A stretch of 64,000 nt of DNA from Proteiniphilum propionicum (GTDB lineage: Bacteria > Bacteroidota > Bacteroidia > Bacteroidales > Dysgonomonadaceae), in assembly GCF_022267555.1 (NCBI RefSeq), contig NZ_CP073586.1, forward strand, positions 1,913,501 to 1,977,500, written 5' to 3'. Position numbers and translations under genes: made by a program. Shown piece by piece: positions 4,279-58,432 of the stretch (its first letter is position 1; each line of letters begins with the position of its first letter). The notes under the pieces were generated by a model. It was not told where the DNA came from. It saw nothing but the letters and a program-made list of their open reading frames with translations, and did no database searches.

Positions 4279-6573
4279 TTAAAACGAAATTGTGAGGCGC
4301 CCTATAAGGTTGCGCGTGGCCTGGGGGTAGTATCCAACCCAGTTGAAAGTGGTTCCGTCTTCAAATGCATCTGTTGAAGCCCATCCGTTTGCCACGTACT
4401 CCCTGTTGAACAGGTTGTTCACGAAAAACTGCAGGTTGATTACTCCCACTTGGCTCTTGGGGAAGGTGTAACCGGCGGAGAGGCTGCTCACGAAGTAGGA
4501 GCCGATCGACTTGTCCTCGTCCGACGTGTTGTCGATGTACTGTTTCCCCACATATTTGCCGTTCAGGTTCATGTAGAAGGCGGATACCGGTTGCCAGGTG
4601 ATGCCTGCCATTCCGATCAATTCCGGAGAGAAGGAGATATTGGTTGTTCCCAACTCATTTGCGATCTGTTTTTGTATTTCCGGATGGTTGTCGTCGGGGA
4701 TCGGGTTATAGTCGTCGGAATTGTCGTACAGGTCGAACCAGGCTACGTAGTTCCGGATTTTATTTCGGCTGAGGGTGGCGTTGGCATCGAGCAGTAGTTT
4801 TTCTGTCCACAGGGGAAGTGATGCCTCAATCTCGATACCTGCACGGTAGCTCTCCTTTACGTTTTCCATCAGCTTGTAACCAATATCAGTAAGTTTGCCG
4901 GTCTGCACCATCTGGTTGTGGTAATCCATGTAATAGAGATTAGCACCAAATTTCAACCCATTCCTGTTGTATCGGTAGCCAAGCTCATAATCGATCATCT
5001 TTTCCGGTTTTATAAAATTAGAAGCTCCTCCCTTTATGCCATCTTTCAGATCGGCACGCAGAGGCTCACGCTTGCCCACGGCTGCCGAAGCGTACAGGCG
5101 GTGATTGTTGCTCAGTTCATAGAACAGGCCCGCCTTAGGGTTGAAAAAGTTGTAGTAAAAATCGCCTGTCAGATCCATCTGGTCGTCATCCATACCACTG
5201 AAGCGGTAGCCCACACGACGGTATTGCAGGTCGCCGAAAAGTGATACTTTTTCATTCAGTTGATATTCCGCTTTGGTGAAGATATTTACTTCCGATTTTT
5301 TGCCTCTGTTTCTGTACCATTCATAATTAACAGGAATATTCTCGTTATGTTTTATCCATGGCAGACGACCGTAATGATCCCCGTCGTAAAAACTGTACAA
5401 ACCGCCGAAGGTGAGCTTCCATCGGTCGTCGGCATAGTCCAGTCCCGCGTTGGCTACATAGAAATTGTTTCGCATCAGCTTACGGCGGATGAAGTCGCTC
5501 TTGCGGTAGGTCTTCCCGTCAATGGTTTGCGGTTCCAGTCCAAAATCGGAGAACTTCTTGTTATACCTGTAGTTCTCATAATAACCGTATCCGTGGTTAT
5601 AACTCAGCCCTGAATTTAATGTGAGATTACGGCTCAGCTCTCTTGTGAGAGTGAGCTGCACAATATCAGAGTAGTAGTTGTCGGTCTCGTTGCCATAGTA
5701 CAATCGGTTGCCGGCATCATCGTAATACTCTCCTGCGGGGTTGTAGCGACGCCCATATTCCGGGTCCTGCATCTGCTTGTCCGACACCCCCTGCCACGAG
5801 ATGCCGGTATGCTGGATACCCCTCAGGTAACTGAGGCGAAGCAGCTGCCGTTCGCTATAGTGAGAAACTACCCCATAGAAATTGGTATGGTTCACTGTGC
5901 CGTTGCGCACATAACCGTCACCCAGCACCCGCGAAAAGCGGGCATCGAGTGATAGTCCGTTTTTCAAAACCCCTGTCCCCGCAGCAACATTCGATAAGAA
6001 TGTACCATAGCTTCCCACGGCGGTGGATGCCTCTCCGTATGCTTCGGAGCGGGCGCCTGCCGTCTGAAGTGAAATGCTTGCACCAAAGGCTCCCGGGCCA
6101 TTGGTGGATGTACCCACGCCACGCTGCACCTGTATGTCCTGCAGCGAGTTGGAAAGATCGGGAAGATTCACCCAGTAAACCTCCTGGCTTTCGGGGTTAT
6201 TCAATGGCATCCCGTTAAGAGTTACATTTATGCGAGTGGCGTCTGTTCCGCGAATCCTGAATGAGGTGTTTCCTACACCAAGGCCGTCTTCGGTAAAAGA
6301 TACAAGCGAAGGTGTGGTTTGAAGTATGGAGGGAATATTGCGTGCAGCATTTTGTTTTTTAATTTCGGAATGAGAGATATTAGAGTATGATACCGGGGTG
6401 TTTTTTCCGGCACGTGTTCCCGAGACAATAACCTCTTCCAGCTGAATAAGATCAAGACTGTCGGTTTGTTCTGCCTGTTCTGCCTGTTCTGACAGTTCTG
6501 CCTGCTCTGCCTGAGCCATCACTTGATAACTGAGTGCCGATAAAATTATCAGCATTAAAAAAACCTTTTTCAT
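4279..6573 (-). CDS. TonB-dependent outer-membrane receptor, probable thiamine transporter
   Basis: 764 residues: signal peptide to about residue 20, a short Glu-Gln-Ala repeat linker, a plug domain (LEEVIVSGTRAGKNTPVSYS, then SFRIRGTDATRINVTLNGMPL and IQVQRGVGTSTNGPGAFG) and a long beta-barrel ending in an aromatic strand (LIGRLTISF). The TonB-box-like segment LEEVIVSGTR is close to residue 46. It imports a ligand across the outer membrane using TonB energy. A TPP riboswitch in its leader and pnuT downstream identify thiamine or a derivative as the likely ligand. It lacks the SusC-type carboxypeptidase-like N-domain. Confidence 0.85.
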   Translation of the reverse strand: MKKVFLMLIILSALSYQVMAQAEQAELSEQAEQAEQTDSLDLIQLEEVIVSGTRAGKNTPVSYSNISHSEIKKQNAARNIPSILQTTPSLVSFTEDGLGVGNTSFRIRGTDATRINVTLNGMPLNNPESQEVYWVNLPDLSNSLQDIQVQRGVGTSTNGPGAFGASISLQTAGARSEAYGEASTAVGSYGTFLSNVAAGTGVLKNGLSLDARFSRVLGDGYVRNGTVNHTNFYGVVSHYSERQLLRLSYLRGIQHTGISWQGVSDKQMQDPEYGRRYNPAGEYYDDAGNRLYYGNETDNYYSDIVQLTLTRELSRNLTLNSGLSYNHGYGYYENYRYNKKFSDFGLEPQTIDGKTYRKSDFIRRKLMRNNFYVANAGLDYADDRWKLTFGGLYSFYDGDHYGRLPWIKHNENIPVNYEWYRNRGKKSEVNIFTKAEYQLNEKVSLFGDLQYRRVGYRFSGMDDDQMDLTGDFYYNFFNPKAGLFYELSNNHRLYASAAVGKREPLRADLKDGIKGGASNFIKPEKMIDYELGYRYNRNGLKFGANLYYMDYHNQMVQTGKLTDIGYKLMENVKESYRAGIEIEASLPLWTEKLLLDANATLSRNKIRNYVAWFDLYDNSDDYNPIPDDNHPEIQKQIANELGTTNISFSPELIGMAGITWQPVSAFYMNLNGKYVGKQYIDNTSDEDKSIGSYFVSSLSAGYTFPKSQVGVINLQFFVNNLFNREYVANGWASTDAFEDGTTFNWVGYYPQATRNLIGRLTISF

Positions 6574-6690
6574 TTACATAAGTTTTTAGGATAAACAGGG
6601 CCTGTGTGACTGCTTATCATTAGTTAGTGTAATAAAAAAGGGGATTTTGTAAAGATATATACCAAAAGCCACAAATTTGTGAGCTTTATA

Positions 6691-6765
6691 TTTTCCCTAC
6701 GCCGGCATTATCCGGATCAGGTATTTTGGGTATGATCTCAGCCCGTTTTATTTGGGCACCCCTTG
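6691..6765 (-). promoter_or_regulatory. TPP riboswitch (THI element)
   Basis: Read on the minus strand, the region has the conserved order GGGGTGC, GGCTGAGA, a variable P3-like arm, ACCTGATCCGGATAATGCC and GCGTAGGGAA, which are the diagnostic TPP-aptamer blocks. It lies ~120 nt upstream of the TonB receptor ATG. Binding of thiamine pyrophosphate is expected to shut off the receptor-pnuT operon. Confidence 0.93.
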
Positions 6766-6778
6766 TAGAATGACAGAA

Positions 6779-14420: not shown

Positions 14421-14436
14421 TGTCGGGATGAGAAGA
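14421..14436. other. attL (16-bp core)
   Basis: TGTCGGGATGAGAAGA, identical to 58355-58370. It is the remnant of the tRNA-Pro 3' end and is followed inward by two TGTCCCG heptamers. Confidence 0.85.
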
Positions 14437-46969: not shown

Positions 46970-47257
46970 ATGAAAAAGATAAACTTTGAAGAAATGGAGT
47001 TTTTTCTGAACATCGAAAAAACTCAAAAAAGAACACAGGACGTTAAGAGTCAGTTCGCGAATGCTATATATGTAAGTGCAACGGGCATTGAAATGCATGC
47101 CCTGGCCATGAAGATATATAATTCAAAAGGTGCTACCGAATTTACAGACAAAGAGTGTAGTATGATTCAGCAAGTAACAAACCAGTTTACACCTATGTTT
47201 ATTGATGCAATAAACAACGTTCTCGACAAACAGGATAACAACAAAAATGAAAAATAA
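46970..47257 (+). CDS. Small helical protein upstream of the DGR target
   Basis: 95 residues from ATG 46970, mostly alpha-helical (FEEMEFFLNIEKTQKRTQDV; ATEFTDKECSMIQQVTNQFT). It lies 6 bp before the DGR target gene. Avd, the DGR accessory factor, is a small helical-bundle protein, but usually basic and between target and RT; this one is near neutral and upstream. Chaperone or tail-assembly role equally possible. Confidence 0.55.
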   Translation: MKKINFEEMEFFLNIEKTQKRTQDVKSQFANAIYVSATGIEMHALAMKIYNSKGATEFTDKECSMIQQVTNQFTPMFIDAINNVLDKQDNNKNEK

Positions 47258-47263
47258 AACATT

Positions 47264-48673
47264 ATGGCAACAGAAACTCAAGAAGTAAAATTACTCGAAG
47301 ATCTTGCATCATTTGACATTGCTGATAAACTAATGGTGTACAGCAAAAAATACAACAAATTAGGCTTTCTGCCTGCAGGTCTTTTAAGCAGTAGTTCCGG
47401 TTACGCTGCACGTCGCTGGAATGTAAATAACAGTTCTCCTATTGGTGAAGCAGTCGGAGACATTGATTATCTGAGAAACCTTCCATCCTTACTTGGACTT
47501 GGTTGTTATCTAGTTGACAATAATCATAACCGGCGCAAGCTCGATCCTACAAACCATTACAAGTTTGCCGACGGAAATGTAGCAGCTCTTGATGGCTCAA
47601 TGGGACATTACATGTGGGGTTGGGGAACAAACTGGTATTACAGCTGGTGGGTCGAAGGTAATTATTACTATGAAGCTGCATCCTTAAAACCAATACTTGG
47701 CAGAATGAATTATGCTATACCTGTAGCAAGTATGTCAGCTATTGGCGGCGGTGTTATAGACAGAGATACAGACACACTTGTATCCTATATTAATAATTCA
47801 GCTCGATATCGTGGAGGTAACAACAATGCAACACTGGATGGAGCTTACAATACCCAGTTAGGTAGAGCCGCCTCAAATTTATCTGCGATATCATTTAGTA
47901 GCATGGCTGTTAAAAATGGTCCCGGCTGGAATTCATTATTCTACGCACATCACGCTATGGCAGCTGCACTGTCACGAATAATATTCGGAACACGTCATTT
48001 GCAAACAGCTTTTAATCCAAATAAGGATGCTAATGGTTTATTTCAGGGTGGTCTTGGTCCAGGAGTATCAAACGTAAACGGTACACAATGGAGTGATAAG
48101 TTTGGCTATCATAGTTTTGTACCAACTGATATAGGAATAGATCTGGCTGATGGATGCGGTGAAGCACCCTATGCTGTACCGGATCTTGATGGTACCACAT
48201 GGACTAATGTGAATGTTCCGGTATTTTTTGGTTATAAAAACATGTTCGGTCTGCTAAATAAATGGGAATACGGCTTGATTATTGATAAAGCAGCAGACGG
48301 TTCCACCGGTGATGTATATATTCTACCAAAATTTTATTCAGAGTTTAATTATAATTCGCTCGCCGGACTTAAAAAAGTCGGAACAATTCCTGCAGGGAAT
48401 GGATATATTTCACAGTTGAACATGACACATCTTTGCCACAAGCCGACAGAAAATATCGGATCAGAATCAACATATTACGCAGATCATCAGTATAACAACA
48501 CCTCTACAGGTCTTCGTGTTTCTGCTGTTGGTGGTACTGCTAGCTATGGTGGCGTTGCTGGTCCGGAGTGCTTGGATGCGTCTAATGCGCCCTCGTCGGT
48601 CATTGGTGTCTATGGCTCGCCGCTCTGCGAAACGGAAAGCGACTGGGACACAACGCCTGTCTTGGTTGTCTAG
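47264..48673 (+). CDS. DGR variable target protein (fibre-tip ligand-binding protein)
   Basis: 469 residues. The N-terminal half contains AARRWNVNNSSPIGEAVGDI and a Gly/Asn/Tyr-rich body with a GWNSLFYAHHAMAAAL helix. The C-terminal ~150 residues look like a formylglycine-enzyme/C-type-lectin fold that displays variability. Residues ~415-455 are encoded by the 122-bp variable repeat, and 14 residues follow it. Predicted to bind the host receptor at the virion tip, diversified by mutagenic retrohoming. Confidence 0.88.
   Translation: MATETQEVKLLEDLASFDIADKLMVYSKKYNKLGFLPAGLLSSSSGYAARRWNVNNSSPIGEAVGDIDYLRNLPSLLGLGCYLVDNNHNRRKLDPTNHYKFADGNVAALDGSMGHYMWGWGTNWYYSWWVEGNYYYEAASLKPILGRMNYAIPVASMSAIGGGVIDRDTDTLVSYINNSARYRGGNNNATLDGAYNTQLGRAASNLSAISFSSMAVKNGPGWNSLFYAHHAMAAALSRIIFGTRHLQTAFNPNKDANGLFQGGLGPGVSNVNGTQWSDKFGYHSFVPTDIGIDLADGCGEAPYAVPDLDGTTWTNVNVPVFFGYKNMFGLLNKWEYGLIIDKAADGSTGDVYILPKFYSEFNYNSLAGLKKVGTIPAGNGYISQLNMTHLCHKPTENIGSESTYYADHQYNNTSTGLRVSAVGGTASYGGVAGPECLDASNAPSSVIGVYGSPLCETESDWDTTPVLVV
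48507..48628 (+). repeat. DGR variable repeat (VR)
   Basis: 122 bp, same length as the template at 48863-48984. 15 of its positions differ from the template, and every one is an A in the template (A to G, T or C). The changed codons give T, S, Y, V, C, D, S, S, I, V and C where the template has mostly Asn (AAY). Non-adenine positions are all identical. Confidence 0.97.
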
Positions 48674-48674
48674 A

Positions 48675-48699
48675 GTTGCCGGGGTGAACACCCCGCAAC
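48675..48699 (+). promoter_or_regulatory. Hairpin 1 downstream of VR
   Basis: GTTGC/GCAAC plus GGGGT/ACCCC arms with one bulged C and a GAAC tetraloop, starting 2 bp after the target gene's stop. DGRs often need a hairpin or cruciform after VR for efficient homing. Confidence 0.55.
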
Positions 48700-48711
48700 C
48701 AAAGCAAACAG

Positions 48712-48727
48712 TGCCCCGGTAGGGGCA
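48712..48727 (+). promoter_or_regulatory. Hairpin 2 downstream of VR, with a GRNA tetraloop
   Basis: TGCCCC-GGTA-GGGGCA: a perfect 6-bp stem with a GGTA loop, matching the GRNA tetraloop of phage DGR homing hairpins. It lies 84 bp after VR. Either this or hairpin 1 could serve homing; it may also end the target transcript. Confidence 0.6.
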
Positions 48728-48805
48728 GGGGGTATTTCACTTTTAGTGAAATCAAAAATAGAAAGAGTTCTTTGACATATTTTTTCATATTTAGGATTTA
48801 AACAT

Positions 48806-48813
48806 TATCTTTG
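48806..48813 (+). promoter_or_regulatory. -7 element upstream of the template repeat
   Basis: TATCTTTG (TAnnTTTG) 50 bp before the TR. It would start a template RNA at about 48820, led by the hairpin GGTTCGTT/AATGAACC (48818-48837). Confidence 0.5.
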
Positions 48814-48862
48814 TTGCGGTTCGTTAAAGAATGAACCAGGTTGTTGTTTCTTGAGTCCTGCT

Positions 48863-48984
48863 CAGGTCTTCGTGTTTCTGCTGTTGGTGGTAATGCTAAC
48901 AATGGTGGCAATGCTGGTCCGGAGTACTTGAATGCGAATAATGCGCCCTCGACGGTCAATGGTAACTATGGCTCGCCGCTCAAC
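48863..48984 (+). repeat. DGR template repeat (TR)
   Basis: 122 bp, pairs with VR at 48507-48628. It is enriched in AAY codons (ten in the VR reading frame), which gives the widest amino-acid choice after adenine mutagenesis. The frame remains open to TAA at 49018-49020 (NFKGESLSASLL), like an ancestral gene end. Confidence 0.97.
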
Positions 48985-49232
48985 TTTAAAGGAGAGAGTT
49001 TGTCAGCTTCTCTCCTATAAAATGAGACAAGACCTCACCCCACGGTGAAAAATTCACAACAAACATGAAGTGCTGGTAGGCTTCCCACCCGGGAAGTTCG
49101 ACGGCAGGGAATTAAAAAAAGCAGACAATCCGATTTACACCGCACACACCGAAAAGACCCACATTCTTTATTAACACCGCAATACACCGTTCAAACACCG
49201 CATGACACTTAACCACTTTTTGTCACACGGTT
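48985..49232 (+). ncRNA. TR-RNA 3' region between template and RT (structured spacer)
   Basis: No protein gene. Contains hairpins GGAGAGA/TCTCTCC (48991-48997 and 49009-49015) and CTTCCC/GGGAAG (49081-49086 and 49091-49096). In studied DGRs the RNA just past TR binds RT and primes cDNA synthesis; this spacer is the natural candidate. Confidence 0.5.
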
Positions 49233-50774
49233 ATGAAACGGAAGGGACACATAGAAAATGCAAATAAGAAGAATTTTGAAGATGCTTTTTATGGCTATTC
49301 AGAAGGTAAACACTACAGAAATGAGGTGCAAGCCTTTGAGAAAAACCTAGAAGAGAATCTTCAGCTTCTTCTTGATGCATATGTGGGCAAGTCATGGAAA
49401 ACATCTCCTTATCAGTCAAAAGAAGTTTTTAAGCCTAAACACCGCATAGTTCATTCTTCACCGGTACCAGATCATGTCATTCAGTGGGCATCAGTATTGC
49501 CAATTGAGATGTGGTTGTTCGATACAATATTCCACAGAGCACCTGCATGTGTGCCGGGTAAAGGGACACATCATTTTGTTTACCAGGAGCGTGATGAGTT
49601 GAGAAAATATTCACAACAGGAGCTTTACTATACTGTCCAGCTTGATGTACATCATTATTTTGAATATATAAATCACGAATTGATGAAGAACCGGATTCGT
49701 AAAAAAATTAAGGATCCTGTTTTACTTCATTTTATAGATGAGTTTATTGATAGTTTTCAGGATGGTCTTGTATTAGGAGTTAAACTATCACAGCTTTTAT
49801 CAGGCTTATACTTGTCTCCATTTGACAGATCAGCACTCAAATGCTTTGGTTTGCAAGAAAACCTGAAACTTTTCAAACATTGGCAAGATATATATGTAAC
49901 AAACTCATTTAACACATGTCGCACGCGAGAGCAAGCTCTTGAATTAGCCAAAGGTGTAGAATATCTTAATAAAAAGTTTGAGCGATTTGTAAATGAAGGT
50001 CTCCAACACTACAGTCGATTTGCAGACAATATTGTAATCAAACACCAGGACAAAACATTCCTGCATATAATGGTCAGGCTGGCCATTTCAAACCTCAAAA
50101 AGGACTATAAACTTGAAGTAAATAAAAGCTGGAATGTACGTCCTACATGGATGGGGAATGATGTTTGCGGTTACGTGTTTTTCCACGAGTATGTGAAACT
50201 AAGAAAAAGAAATAAAAAATCGCTCTGCAGGCAGGTAGCAAAATTGCGAAAGAAAGGCTACTCCGAAGAGGATATCTCTCTTAAAACAGCTTCCCGGGTA
50301 GGCTTTGCCTCGCATGCAGACACAAAAAATTTAATGAACAAACTAAATATGGAAAAGAGACTGGGCAAAGTCATTCGCAAGCGTAAACGAAAAGCTCCCT
50401 TTGCAGGTATGAAACCAGATCAAAAAAGATCTATCGAAACTATAGTATGCACACCGTTTGACTCAGAAGATGCTAAACTGATAAGGCTAATTGATTATAA
50501 CGTACAAGACTCAATTATAAGTAATAATGATGACGGATCACCAAAGCAGAGAATTGCAATAAGATATAATATCTGCACTTACGTCGAGCATCCGGAAGAA
50601 GAGGGTGGTCAGACAATATATACATGGAGCGAACAGGAGTTTTACAGCTTCAGCGGTTCAAAAGTTATGATCGATCAGGCTACAAATGATTTCACAAAGG
50701 ATGATCTCCCTATTGCTACAGTTGTCAAAGAATTCAAAAACGCCCATAATAAGAAGTTTTACAAATTTACATAA
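49233..50774 (+). CDS. DGR reverse transcriptase with non-canonical FADN box and C-terminal extension
   Basis: 513 residues. Visible RT blocks are KHRIVHSSPVPDHVIQWASV (69-88), motif A VQLDVHHYFEYI (135-146, D138), motif B GVKLSQLLSGLYL (182-194) with the DGR-typical SQ instead of QG, motif C YSRFADNIVI (260-269) and thumb-proximal CGYVFFHEYVKLRKRNKK (312-329). Motif C has F263 and N266 in place of Y and the second Asp of YxDD. An extra ~125-residue domain follows residue ~388. It should copy TR RNA into adenine-mutagenised cDNA. Confidence 0.9.
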   Translation: MKRKGHIENANKKNFEDAFYGYSEGKHYRNEVQAFEKNLEENLQLLLDAYVGKSWKTSPYQSKEVFKPKHRIVHSSPVPDHVIQWASVLPIEMWLFDTIFHRAPACVPGKGTHHFVYQERDELRKYSQQELYYTVQLDVHHYFEYINHELMKNRIRKKIKDPVLLHFIDEFIDSFQDGLVLGVKLSQLLSGLYLSPFDRSALKCFGLQENLKLFKHWQDIYVTNSFNTCRTREQALELAKGVEYLNKKFERFVNEGLQHYSRFADNIVIKHQDKTFLHIMVRLAISNLKKDYKLEVNKSWNVRPTWMGNDVCGYVFFHEYVKLRKRNKKSLCRQVAKLRKKGYSEEDISLKTASRVGFASHADTKNLMNKLNMEKRLGKVIRKRKRKAPFAGMKPDQKRSIETIVCTPFDSEDAKLIRLIDYNVQDSIISNNDDGSPKQRIAIRYNICTYVEHPEEEGGQTIYTWSEQEFYSFSGSKVMIDQATNDFTKDDLPIATVVKEFKNAHNKKFYKFT

Positions 50775-57047: not shown

Positions 57048-58220
57048 TCAGAAATATGTCTCGTGGTTTTTTATTAACTCGTTGGCCTCTTGAATATCAT
57101 GTGGAGTGTATTTATCTGTCATGAGAAGAGATGAGTGTCTGGCCTGATCTCTAACTGTAATAGATGGTTGAGTTCTCAACATGGCAGTAATACCGGTATC
57201 TTTTAATGAATAAAACTTATAGGAAGCAGGAAGATCCAGTTTTTTTCTAACGTGGTGAAACCAAAAGTCTCTAAATTGTTTTTCACTTCTTTGTTCTTTC
57301 CCAGGCATAAAATTATTTGAAAATAAAAAATAACCACTTGGATATTTGAATATATTAAGTTCTAGCATCAATCTTATAACCTTTGCCGGCAATGTTAGGG
57401 TGCCATCTTTTTTATTTTTTGAATTCACGTCAGGAATAAAAAGAGTCTGTCTTTTAAGTGAAATATGTGATATCTTAATTTGTCCAATTTCTTTTGGTCT
57501 TACAAAACAGTAATACAACATGTAGCATGCTAGCAGGTAGTGTTTATTTGTTTTTTCAACATGTATTTTTATCCTCTTCATGTCAGCATCAGGTATTGCA
57601 CTTCTGCTCTTTTTTATAGACTTTTTACCATAACTTATAAAACCATCTGTTGGTCTTACTTTTAAATATTGATTTTGAATTAACCAGGAAGAAAAAACTT
57701 TCATCCATCTTAGATAGTTATCTCTGGTTTGCGGCTTACTTTCTCTTTCAAGATAAATATGTTCAAGCATCATTCTAACGAATGATTGGTCAAACTGATA
57801 GATATATACAGCTTTGTTTGAACGGTTGTTATTCCATGATTCAACATTTTTTAGATAAGAAATGTATGTGTCATAAGTGTCTTTTCTATAGATATCATCT
57901 GCAAACATTTTATCTAAATAACGTCTGTAATGTTCAAATACACTTTCAAGAGTATGGTATGCTCTACTGTTGTCAGCCTCAATCCATGGATTCCAGCCGT
58001 TCACAAGCTGAGTGTTAAGCCTTTTAATTAGTTCCCCGGCATATTTTCTGCGCTCACCAGTTTTTTTAATGAAATTTAGTTTGATCCTTTTTCTACGCAT
58101 TTTATTTTGCGACGGATCATAAGCATAAAAACCCACATACCAGTCTTTGCCGGTATATAATTGTGGCGGTGTGTACGAAATAATGGGCAATACGGATGTT
58201 TTCCCTACTTGGCTAAACAT
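57048..58220 (-). CDS. int: Tyrosine-recombinase integrase
   Basis: 390 residues: an N-terminal arm-binding-like region (TGKDWYVGFYAYDPSQNKMR), a SAM-like core-binding domain (~90-185) and a catalytic domain with R241 (FVRPKEIG), box II YSLKDTGI (337-344), H362 (ARHSS) and nucleophile Y371 (TDKYTP). Box II has Lys (K340) where most family members have Arg. It integrates the phage into tRNA-Pro. No clear promoter lies in its 136-bp leader, so readthrough from the tRNA promoter is plausible. Confidence 0.92.
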   Translation of the reverse strand: MFSQVGKTSVLPIISYTPPQLYTGKDWYVGFYAYDPSQNKMRRKRIKLNFIKKTGERRKYAGELIKRLNTQLVNGWNPWIEADNSRAYHTLESVFEHYRRYLDKMFADDIYRKDTYDTYISYLKNVESWNNNRSNKAVYIYQFDQSFVRMMLEHIYLERESKPQTRDNYLRWMKVFSSWLIQNQYLKVRPTDGFISYGKKSIKKSRSAIPDADMKRIKIHVEKTNKHYLLACYMLYYCFVRPKEIGQIKISHISLKRQTLFIPDVNSKNKKDGTLTLPAKVIRLMLELNIFKYPSGYFLFSNNFMPGKEQRSEKQFRDFWFHHVRKKLDLPASYKFYSLKDTGITAMLRTQPSITVRDQARHSSLLMTDKYTPHDIQEANELIKNHETYF

Positions 58221-58354: not shown

Positions 58355-58370
58355 TGTCGGGATGAGAAGA
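58355..58370. other. attR (16-bp core, overlaps tRNA-Pro 3' end)
   Basis: Same 16 bases as 14421-14436. Bases 58357-58370 are the last 14 nt of the tRNA, so the phage restores the gene on integration. Confidence 0.88.
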
Positions 58371-58432
58371 TTCGAACTTCCGACCCCACGCCCCCCAGAC
58401 GCGTACTCTAAACCGGACTGAGCTACATCCCG
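58357..58432 (-). tRNA. tRNA-Pro (anticodon GGG)
   Basis: 76 nt on the minus strand. The acceptor stem CGGGATG pairs with CATCCCG and the discriminator is A. The D arm is GCTC...GAGT, the anticodon loop CTGGGGG gives GGG, and the T arm is GGAAG-TTCGAAT-CTTCT. CCA is not encoded. It reads the CCC codon. A -7 box (TACTTTTG, 58445-58452 minus) lies just upstream. Its 3' end is the phage attachment site. Confidence 0.95.

Follow-up and report, generated by a model that had tools for sequence, protein, structure and literature searches.

Among the closest described systems is the diversity-generating retroelement (DGR) of Bordetella phage BPP-1, comprising Mtd, Avd and bRT, in which a variable repeat (VR) lies at the 3′ end of the target gene, the template repeat (TR) follows downstream and a structured RNA precedes the gene for the reverse transcriptase (RT). 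Avd is needed in this system, and its spacer RNA is reported to fold, to recruit the RT–Avd complex and to prime cDNA synthesis (PMC12875486). In the crAss-like/gut Bacteroidota phages cr55_1, LMMB and Bacteroides phage Versailles the target gene likewise lies upstream of the RT gene and a small gene follows it. Here we describe a locus in a 64,000-nucleotide stretch of Proteiniphilum propionicum DNA (assembly GCF_022267555.1, contig NZ_CP073586.1, forward-strand positions 1,913,501 to 1,977,500; hereafter the window, whose own coordinates are used throughout) that is very probably a phage DGR, using mutagenic retrohoming to diversify a tail-tip protein with a C-type-lectin fold and run by a clade of RTs in which motif C reads FxDN in place of YxDD. 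The cassette consists, in order, of the target gene, the TR, an RT-17 RNA, the RT gene and a 125-residue open reading frame (ORF) (Table 1). It shares with BPP-1 the arrangement of repeats and spacer RNA and the RT fold, and the model of the window target resembles the solved Mtd fold. It differs in having FADN where BPP-1 has YMDD, in a palm insert of about 50 residues and a C-terminal domain in the RT, in that no Avd was recognized, and in that the hairpin located directly after VR in BPP-1 was not found. The annotated RTs of cr55_1, LMMB and Versailles (441, 431 and 395 aa), in contrast, all retain both motif-C aspartates (DD), while the crAssE-Sib DGR, whose RT also departs from a canonical motif, is reported to have a changed motif 4 (GxxxSP) with YxDD kept (PMC11054128), the reverse of the situation in the window RT. 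As a DGR the locus is a further member of a well-known kind; its distinctive part is the enzyme clade.

The initial annotation had recognized a 122-bp segment at the 3′ end of the target gene that recurs downstream with differences only at adenines of the downstream copy. The location of the repeat and its adenine-only character hold: over 122 bp all 15 mismatches fall among the 25 adenines of the downstream copy, a distribution with a chance of ∼5e-13. A uniform-penalty alignment, however, ends the shared repeat at 119 bp, within which all 13 mismatches lie at TR adenines and none at other bases, so that the tally of 15 changes among 24–25 adenines is corrected to 13 of 23. The last two mismatches of the longer span, at 48626-48627 (AAC versus TGC), are placed outside the repeat because they open a Cys codon that follows VR in relatives' target genes as well. 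The target proteins read LC[ED] at this point in 33 of 39 rows, window included, while the remaining rows comprise VCE in L047 (comparison loci are cited by our L numbers), a different end in L083 and four contig-edge or wrong-frame reads. The template codons are mostly AAY, as annotated, accounting for 8 of the 10 changed codons in the 119-bp repeat. The genome, a single contig of 3.9 Mb, contains only these two copies. By analogy with BPP-1, the 16 invariant base pairs at the 3′ end of VR may act as an initiation-of-mutagenic-homing (IMH)-like element.

The same bias extends to related cassettes. A repeat pair was found in 41 of the 51 loci whose RT carries FxDN, of which 39 were used (L026 duplicates L024, and the repeat of L099 is interrupted by a run of N). 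With equal mismatch penalties, and assigning TR to the copy whose adenines account for more of the differences, 427 of 858 TR adenines were changed compared with 17 of 3,663 other bases, although many of the 39 pairs are close kin and are not independent. A detector favouring A returned 478 of 901 adenines against 4 of 3,569 other bases; the equal-penalty counts are preferred because this detector penalizes non-A mismatches. In three pairs of relatives (L022/L027, L033/L034 and L080/L081), in which the TRs are identical or near-identical and the RT DNA is 98.6–99.3% identical, the VRs differ at 7–12 adenine positions and nowhere else. Across 27 relative pairs, differences between VRs outside TR adenines were absent from 26, the exception being L028/L029 with two. 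L024/L026, one of the 26, is a duplicate; positions at which the two TRs disagree were excluded from this comparison, and the RT identities are underestimates wherever the ORFs have different ends. The initial annotation had proposed that the system has been active, and that a lack of VR variation among close relatives sharing a TR would speak against a DGR; the adenine-only variation in the three pairs bears out the proposal. For the phage of the window itself no close pair with two VRs turned up, since L003, the relative sharing its TR, contains the repeat once. L080 and L081 are two contigs of one isolate (Muribaculaceae Isolate-037), carrying near-identical DGR copies with different VRs.

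The RT gene begins ∼250 bp after TR, and a fold search with residues 1–384 of its product returned a DGR RT as the best PDB match. The protein is 513 residues long, the published mean lengths of DGR RTs being 375–378 aa (PMC3521204, PMC4244168). Its motif 4 fits the (I/V/L)GxxxSQ consensus described for DGR RTs (PMC3521204), which in some relatives ends in AQ, TQ or ST. Motif C, encoded by TTT GCA GAC AAT, lacks the second aspartate of YxDD, both aspartates of which are 100% conserved in DGR RTs according to one survey (PMC3521204). The enzyme is nevertheless retained among DGR RTs because DD is an observation of that survey, the mutational pattern is that of a DGR, and phylogeny places the clade among DGR RTs. 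The C-terminal domain received no named function from Pfam or PHROGs; the strand order suggests a β-rich domain with one helix. Its separate-gene form, found beside many canonical DGR RTs, has weak PHROG matches of unknown function. The initial annotation mentions neither FADN nor the insert, the C-terminal domain or the RT-17 RNA.

The asparagine is not peculiar to the window enzyme. When motif C was scored by alignment to the YMDD of BPP-1, F[AMV]DN was found in all 51 long-form RTs covering the site, window included (FADN in 22, FMDN in 15 and FVDN in 14), while the other RT rows had DD in 122 of 122 cases; four rows did not cover the site and cr53_1 (L187) was left out. The 122 DD rows are a biased sample, as 79 came from a search in which one of two patterns required DD, and among the remaining 43 BPP-1 is counted twice, some genes appear through two loci that overlap, and 13 rows do not belong to the DGR side. 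A scan independent of motif C gave FxDN in 30 of 33 loci, with YADD in L048 (30% identity, short form) and two loci not covering the site in the frame taken. A scan with two patterns, one containing DN, gave FxDN in 19 of 21 loci, two not covering the site; these 30 and 19 loci, together with the window and L012, make up the 51. For L095 and L097 the first regular-expression match, YSDG, was ruled out as motif C, which is FMDN in both. FxDN is kept in RTs with as little as 31% identity to that of the window. In a quick tree built without the motif columns (87 rows: 28 FxDN and 59 DD) the FxDN enzymes form one side of a branch with a Shimodaira–Hasegawa-like approximate likelihood ratio (SH-aLRT) support of 99, which falls among DGR RTs when group-II-like rows serve as outgroup. 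The FxDN RTs are thus one clade with a single origin on this tree.

Further features distinguish the clade. Motif 4 and motif C are separated by 74–75 residues in 49 of the 51 FxDN RTs (by 36 and 40 in the remaining two), compared with 25 residues in 106 of 109 DGR-side DD rows, and the clade is further marked by H81, K184, F263, N266 and N297. The C-terminal domain shares one open frame with motif C in 43 of the 51 loci; in the other eight (L036, L037, L039-L041, L043, L044 and L086) it is encoded separately, by a next-frame ORF in almost the same position, and many DD cassettes likewise carry it as a separate ORF. A small conserved gene with an FTGSxVLIxQ signature follows the RT gene in 42 of 121 DD loci (L018:6022-6384 and similar ORFs); a scan of three examples yielded no Pfam name. 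Named hosts of FxDN RTs, mostly represented by metagenome-assembled genomes, belong to the Bacteroidales and include Muribaculaceae, Alistipes, Parabacteroides, Phocaeicola and Bacteroides cellulosilyticus DSM 14838. Within the genus (39 genomes) the RT of the window itself was the only match to extend over more than 200 residues in a single frame; in one further genome, G036, a relative of canonical length was seen in two pieces. No report of FxDN-type DGR RTs was found in the DGR literature searched, coverage of which was partial and included PMC3521204, PMC11054128, PMC4244168, PMC6199706 and PMC12875486.

The spacer between TR and RT contains an RNA of the Rfam family RT-17, in the same place as the Phage_DGR RNA (RF03022) that matches the BPP-1 spacer. 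At the Rfam threshold, RT-17 precedes the RT gene in the window, in L003-L005, in L012, in 7 of another 11 long-form loci and in 8 of 20 DD loci; nine other loci have no such match (L045, the DD locus L048 and seven with FVDN). With our own model, R1, 41 of 50 sources had a match to the element ahead of the RT (38 at E≤3e-4, three at E 0.003–0.02), the model having been built from 13 sequences of which 10 are among these 50 test sources; in FVDN loci it matched 6 of 14, with weak scores. Covariation supports the base pairs of the element: in the 13 copies 16 cells had changed on both sides, compared with 6.5 in shuffles, and 93.6% of cells were paired against 27–43% in slid versions. The family is scarce in the phylum, with matches in 4 of 395 genomes at E≤0.001, two of them over the cut-off. 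By analogy with the BPP-1 spacer, the RT-17 RNA may prime cDNA synthesis and recruit the RT. In Bacillus phage BalMu-1 an Rfam RT-14 RNA directly precedes the RT gene (L183:1334-1477), and RNAs of the RT-n families may more generally be DGR RNAs.

Searches of PDB and Pfam with the target sequence gave no useful match, and the assignment of its fold therefore depends on an AlphaFold2 (AF2) model, which displays a C-type-lectin fold, as the initial annotation had anticipated, with the DGR protein TaqVP as its nearest neighbour. The window target is related to those of cr55_1 and Versailles (27–29% identity); LMMB was absent among the matches. The target is probably the tail-tip protein with which the phage grips bacteria, and would be the component that binds the receptor. 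Adenine-only VR/TR differences, a DGR-type RT, a TR–RT spacer RNA and a predicted C-type-lectin-fold target together uphold the identification of the locus as a DGR. A scan for perfect stems found no BPP-1-style hairpin directly after VR, the best stem in the window being at +108. Perfect stems of ≥7 bp occur within 160 nt after VR in 41% of 41 loci, some of them near-identical, compared with 8% at random places; they cluster mostly near +100 and may be terminators. The interval from the target stop codon to TR (48675-48740) holds GC-rich, near-perfect hairpins.

In the mechanism we propose, the RT would bind a transcript that contains TR and, immediately 3′ of it, the RT-17 RNA, and would copy TR into cDNA with errors opposite adenines; the cDNA would then replace VR. 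Judged from sequence, we infer that the FxDN RT is catalytically competent and itself the source of the adenine-directed changes, with the insert or the C-terminal domain compensating for the missing aspartate. A more specific proposal, which we regard as possible rather than probable, is that this clade, in gut Bacteroidales and their phages, works with only two active-site carboxylates (an Asp each in motifs A and C, with Asn at the second motif-C place) and that the insert and a small β-rich domain, fused or adjacent, compensate for the loss, perhaps replacing Avd, with altered metal use and an altered adenine error spectrum.

Several observations weigh against a DGR driven by its own FxDN enzyme. 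HIV RT with both motif-C aspartates replaced by Asn is reported to be inactive as a polymerase (PMC5498913), so loss of one of them may be costly, although HIV RT is an indirect guide because the change was a double one. Of the three closest viral relatives, L003 and L004 each contain the repeat only once (L003:3288-3409 and L004:5626-5747), the target gene continuing directly into the TR-side tail; the L003 copy is identical to the window TR, and either VR–TR recombination or assembly collapse could account for both. No repeat pair was found in 10 of the 51 FxDN loci (L003, L004, L012, L031, L079, L082, L086, L091, L092 and L097), several of them at contig ends. Model R1 found no convincing RT-17-like RNA in 8 of the 14 FVDN loci or in L099, and no Avd-type Pfam match was obtained in the small neighbouring ORFs at 46970 and 50686. 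The VR changes could also have been made in an earlier host.

That the system is a fully ordinary DGR in which the asparagine is neutral and without consequence is rather unlikely, but is consistent with the retention of adenine targeting. Birnavirus RNA polymerases, reported to have a natural Asp-to-Asn change at the second motif-C acid (ADN for GDD; PMC3121795), show that xDN active sites exist, so FxDN enzymes need not be dead; these viral enzymes differ, however, in being RNA-dependent RNA polymerases with re-ordered motifs. Against neutrality, the asparagine is fixed in 51 of 51 enzymes together with the Tyr-to-Phe change, the 50-residue insert, H81, K184 and N297. The error spectra differ as well: changes of A to G, T and C number 175, 145 and 100 in 37 FxDN pairs (42% A>G; 51% of adenines changed) and 855, 329 and 262 in 73 DD pairs (59% A>G; 65% of adenines changed), pairs with fewer than five differences or less than 75% of them at A having been dropped. 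This difference, uncorrected for kinship, codon make-up and selection, which confound it, is suggestive only.

Considerably less probable is that FxDN inactivates the RT and that the VR differences are relics that predate the change or were made in trans by another RT, although the reported invariance of the second motif-C aspartate (PMC3521204), the single repeat copies in L003 and L004 and an in-frame stop in the L045 RT point in this direction. The motif persists without exception down to 31% identity, yet near-identical phages show adenine-only VR differences, a pattern not expected of an enzyme dead throughout the clade unless another RT supplies the activity. The domain organization is also retained, in one frame or as the next ORF. 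The window genome contains no second DGR-type RT at E≤0.001; two other RT places detected at this threshold are of group II intron type, with QG in place of (I/V/L)G before motif 4, and YADD. One of the two has a group II RT match, and L011 groups with the outgroup rows on the tree. Finally, the view that the repeats are an ordinary duplicated gene end with substitutions on A by coincidence, and no retroelement, has practically no probability and is refuted by the comparative data. Two-copy repeats are common in genomes, but the adenine-only distribution is not expected by chance, a DGR-type RT and RNA are adjacent, and the same layout and bias recur in 39 FxDN loci.

Table 1. Features of the DGR cassette and its prophage in the window.
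Feature	Position	Strand	Basis or remark
Target gene, 469 aa, predicted C-type-lectin-fold tail protein	47264..48673	+	VR at 3′ end; AF2 model
VR, 119 bp	48507..48625	+	alignment with TR
IMH-like invariant 3′ end of VR, 16 bp (putative)	48610..48625	+	identical to TR 48966-48981
TR, 119 bp, 23 adenines	48863..48981	+	alignment with VR
RT-17 RNA, Rfam RF03020, TR–RT spacer	49031..49128	+	75.5 bits; gathering threshold 40.4
DGR reverse transcriptase, 513 aa	49233..50774	+	PHROG 1423 RT, E=1e-63; tree; PDB fold match
RT motif 4, LGVKLSQ	49773..49793	+	alignment; fits (I/V/L)GxxxSQ of DGR RTs
RT insert of ∼50 residues between motif 4 and motif C, approximate bounds	49839..49994	+	motif spacing
RT motif C, FADN in place of YxDD	50019..50030	+	aligned to BPP-1 YMDD
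RT C-terminal domain, homologous to a separate gene beside many canonical DGR RTs	50412..50771	+	sequence comparison
ORF of unknown function after RT, 125 aa	50794..51171	+	also in L003-L005 and L012
Prophage tyrosine integrase	57048..58220	-	PF00589, E=3e-10

The cassette adjoins a tape-measure gene and lies within a prophage. A 16-bp direct repeat occurs at 14421-14436 and 58355-58370, 44 kb apart, with the downstream copy at the 3′ end of tRNA-Pro(GGG) (58356-58432); the repeats are likely the attachment (att) sites, and the prophage seems to end at tRNA-Pro. Outside the prophage, a thiamine pyrophosphate (TPP) riboswitch (6676-6773, minus strand) lies upstream of 4279-6573 (minus strand), a putative receptor-like gene named by eye.

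The mutagenic propensity of DGR RTs is described as not fully understood in a 2026 paper (PMC12875486). A natural clade that still targets adenines although the second catalytic aspartate is missing is relevant to the question of which residues determine error and which determine chemistry, and natural FxDN and YxDD enzymes are available for comparison. Tools or surveys keyed to YxDD could drop FxDN cassettes, as myDGR is reported to have done with a motif-4 variant (PMC11054128). The C-terminal domain, in turn, is a candidate partner protein of the DGRs that carry its separate-gene form.
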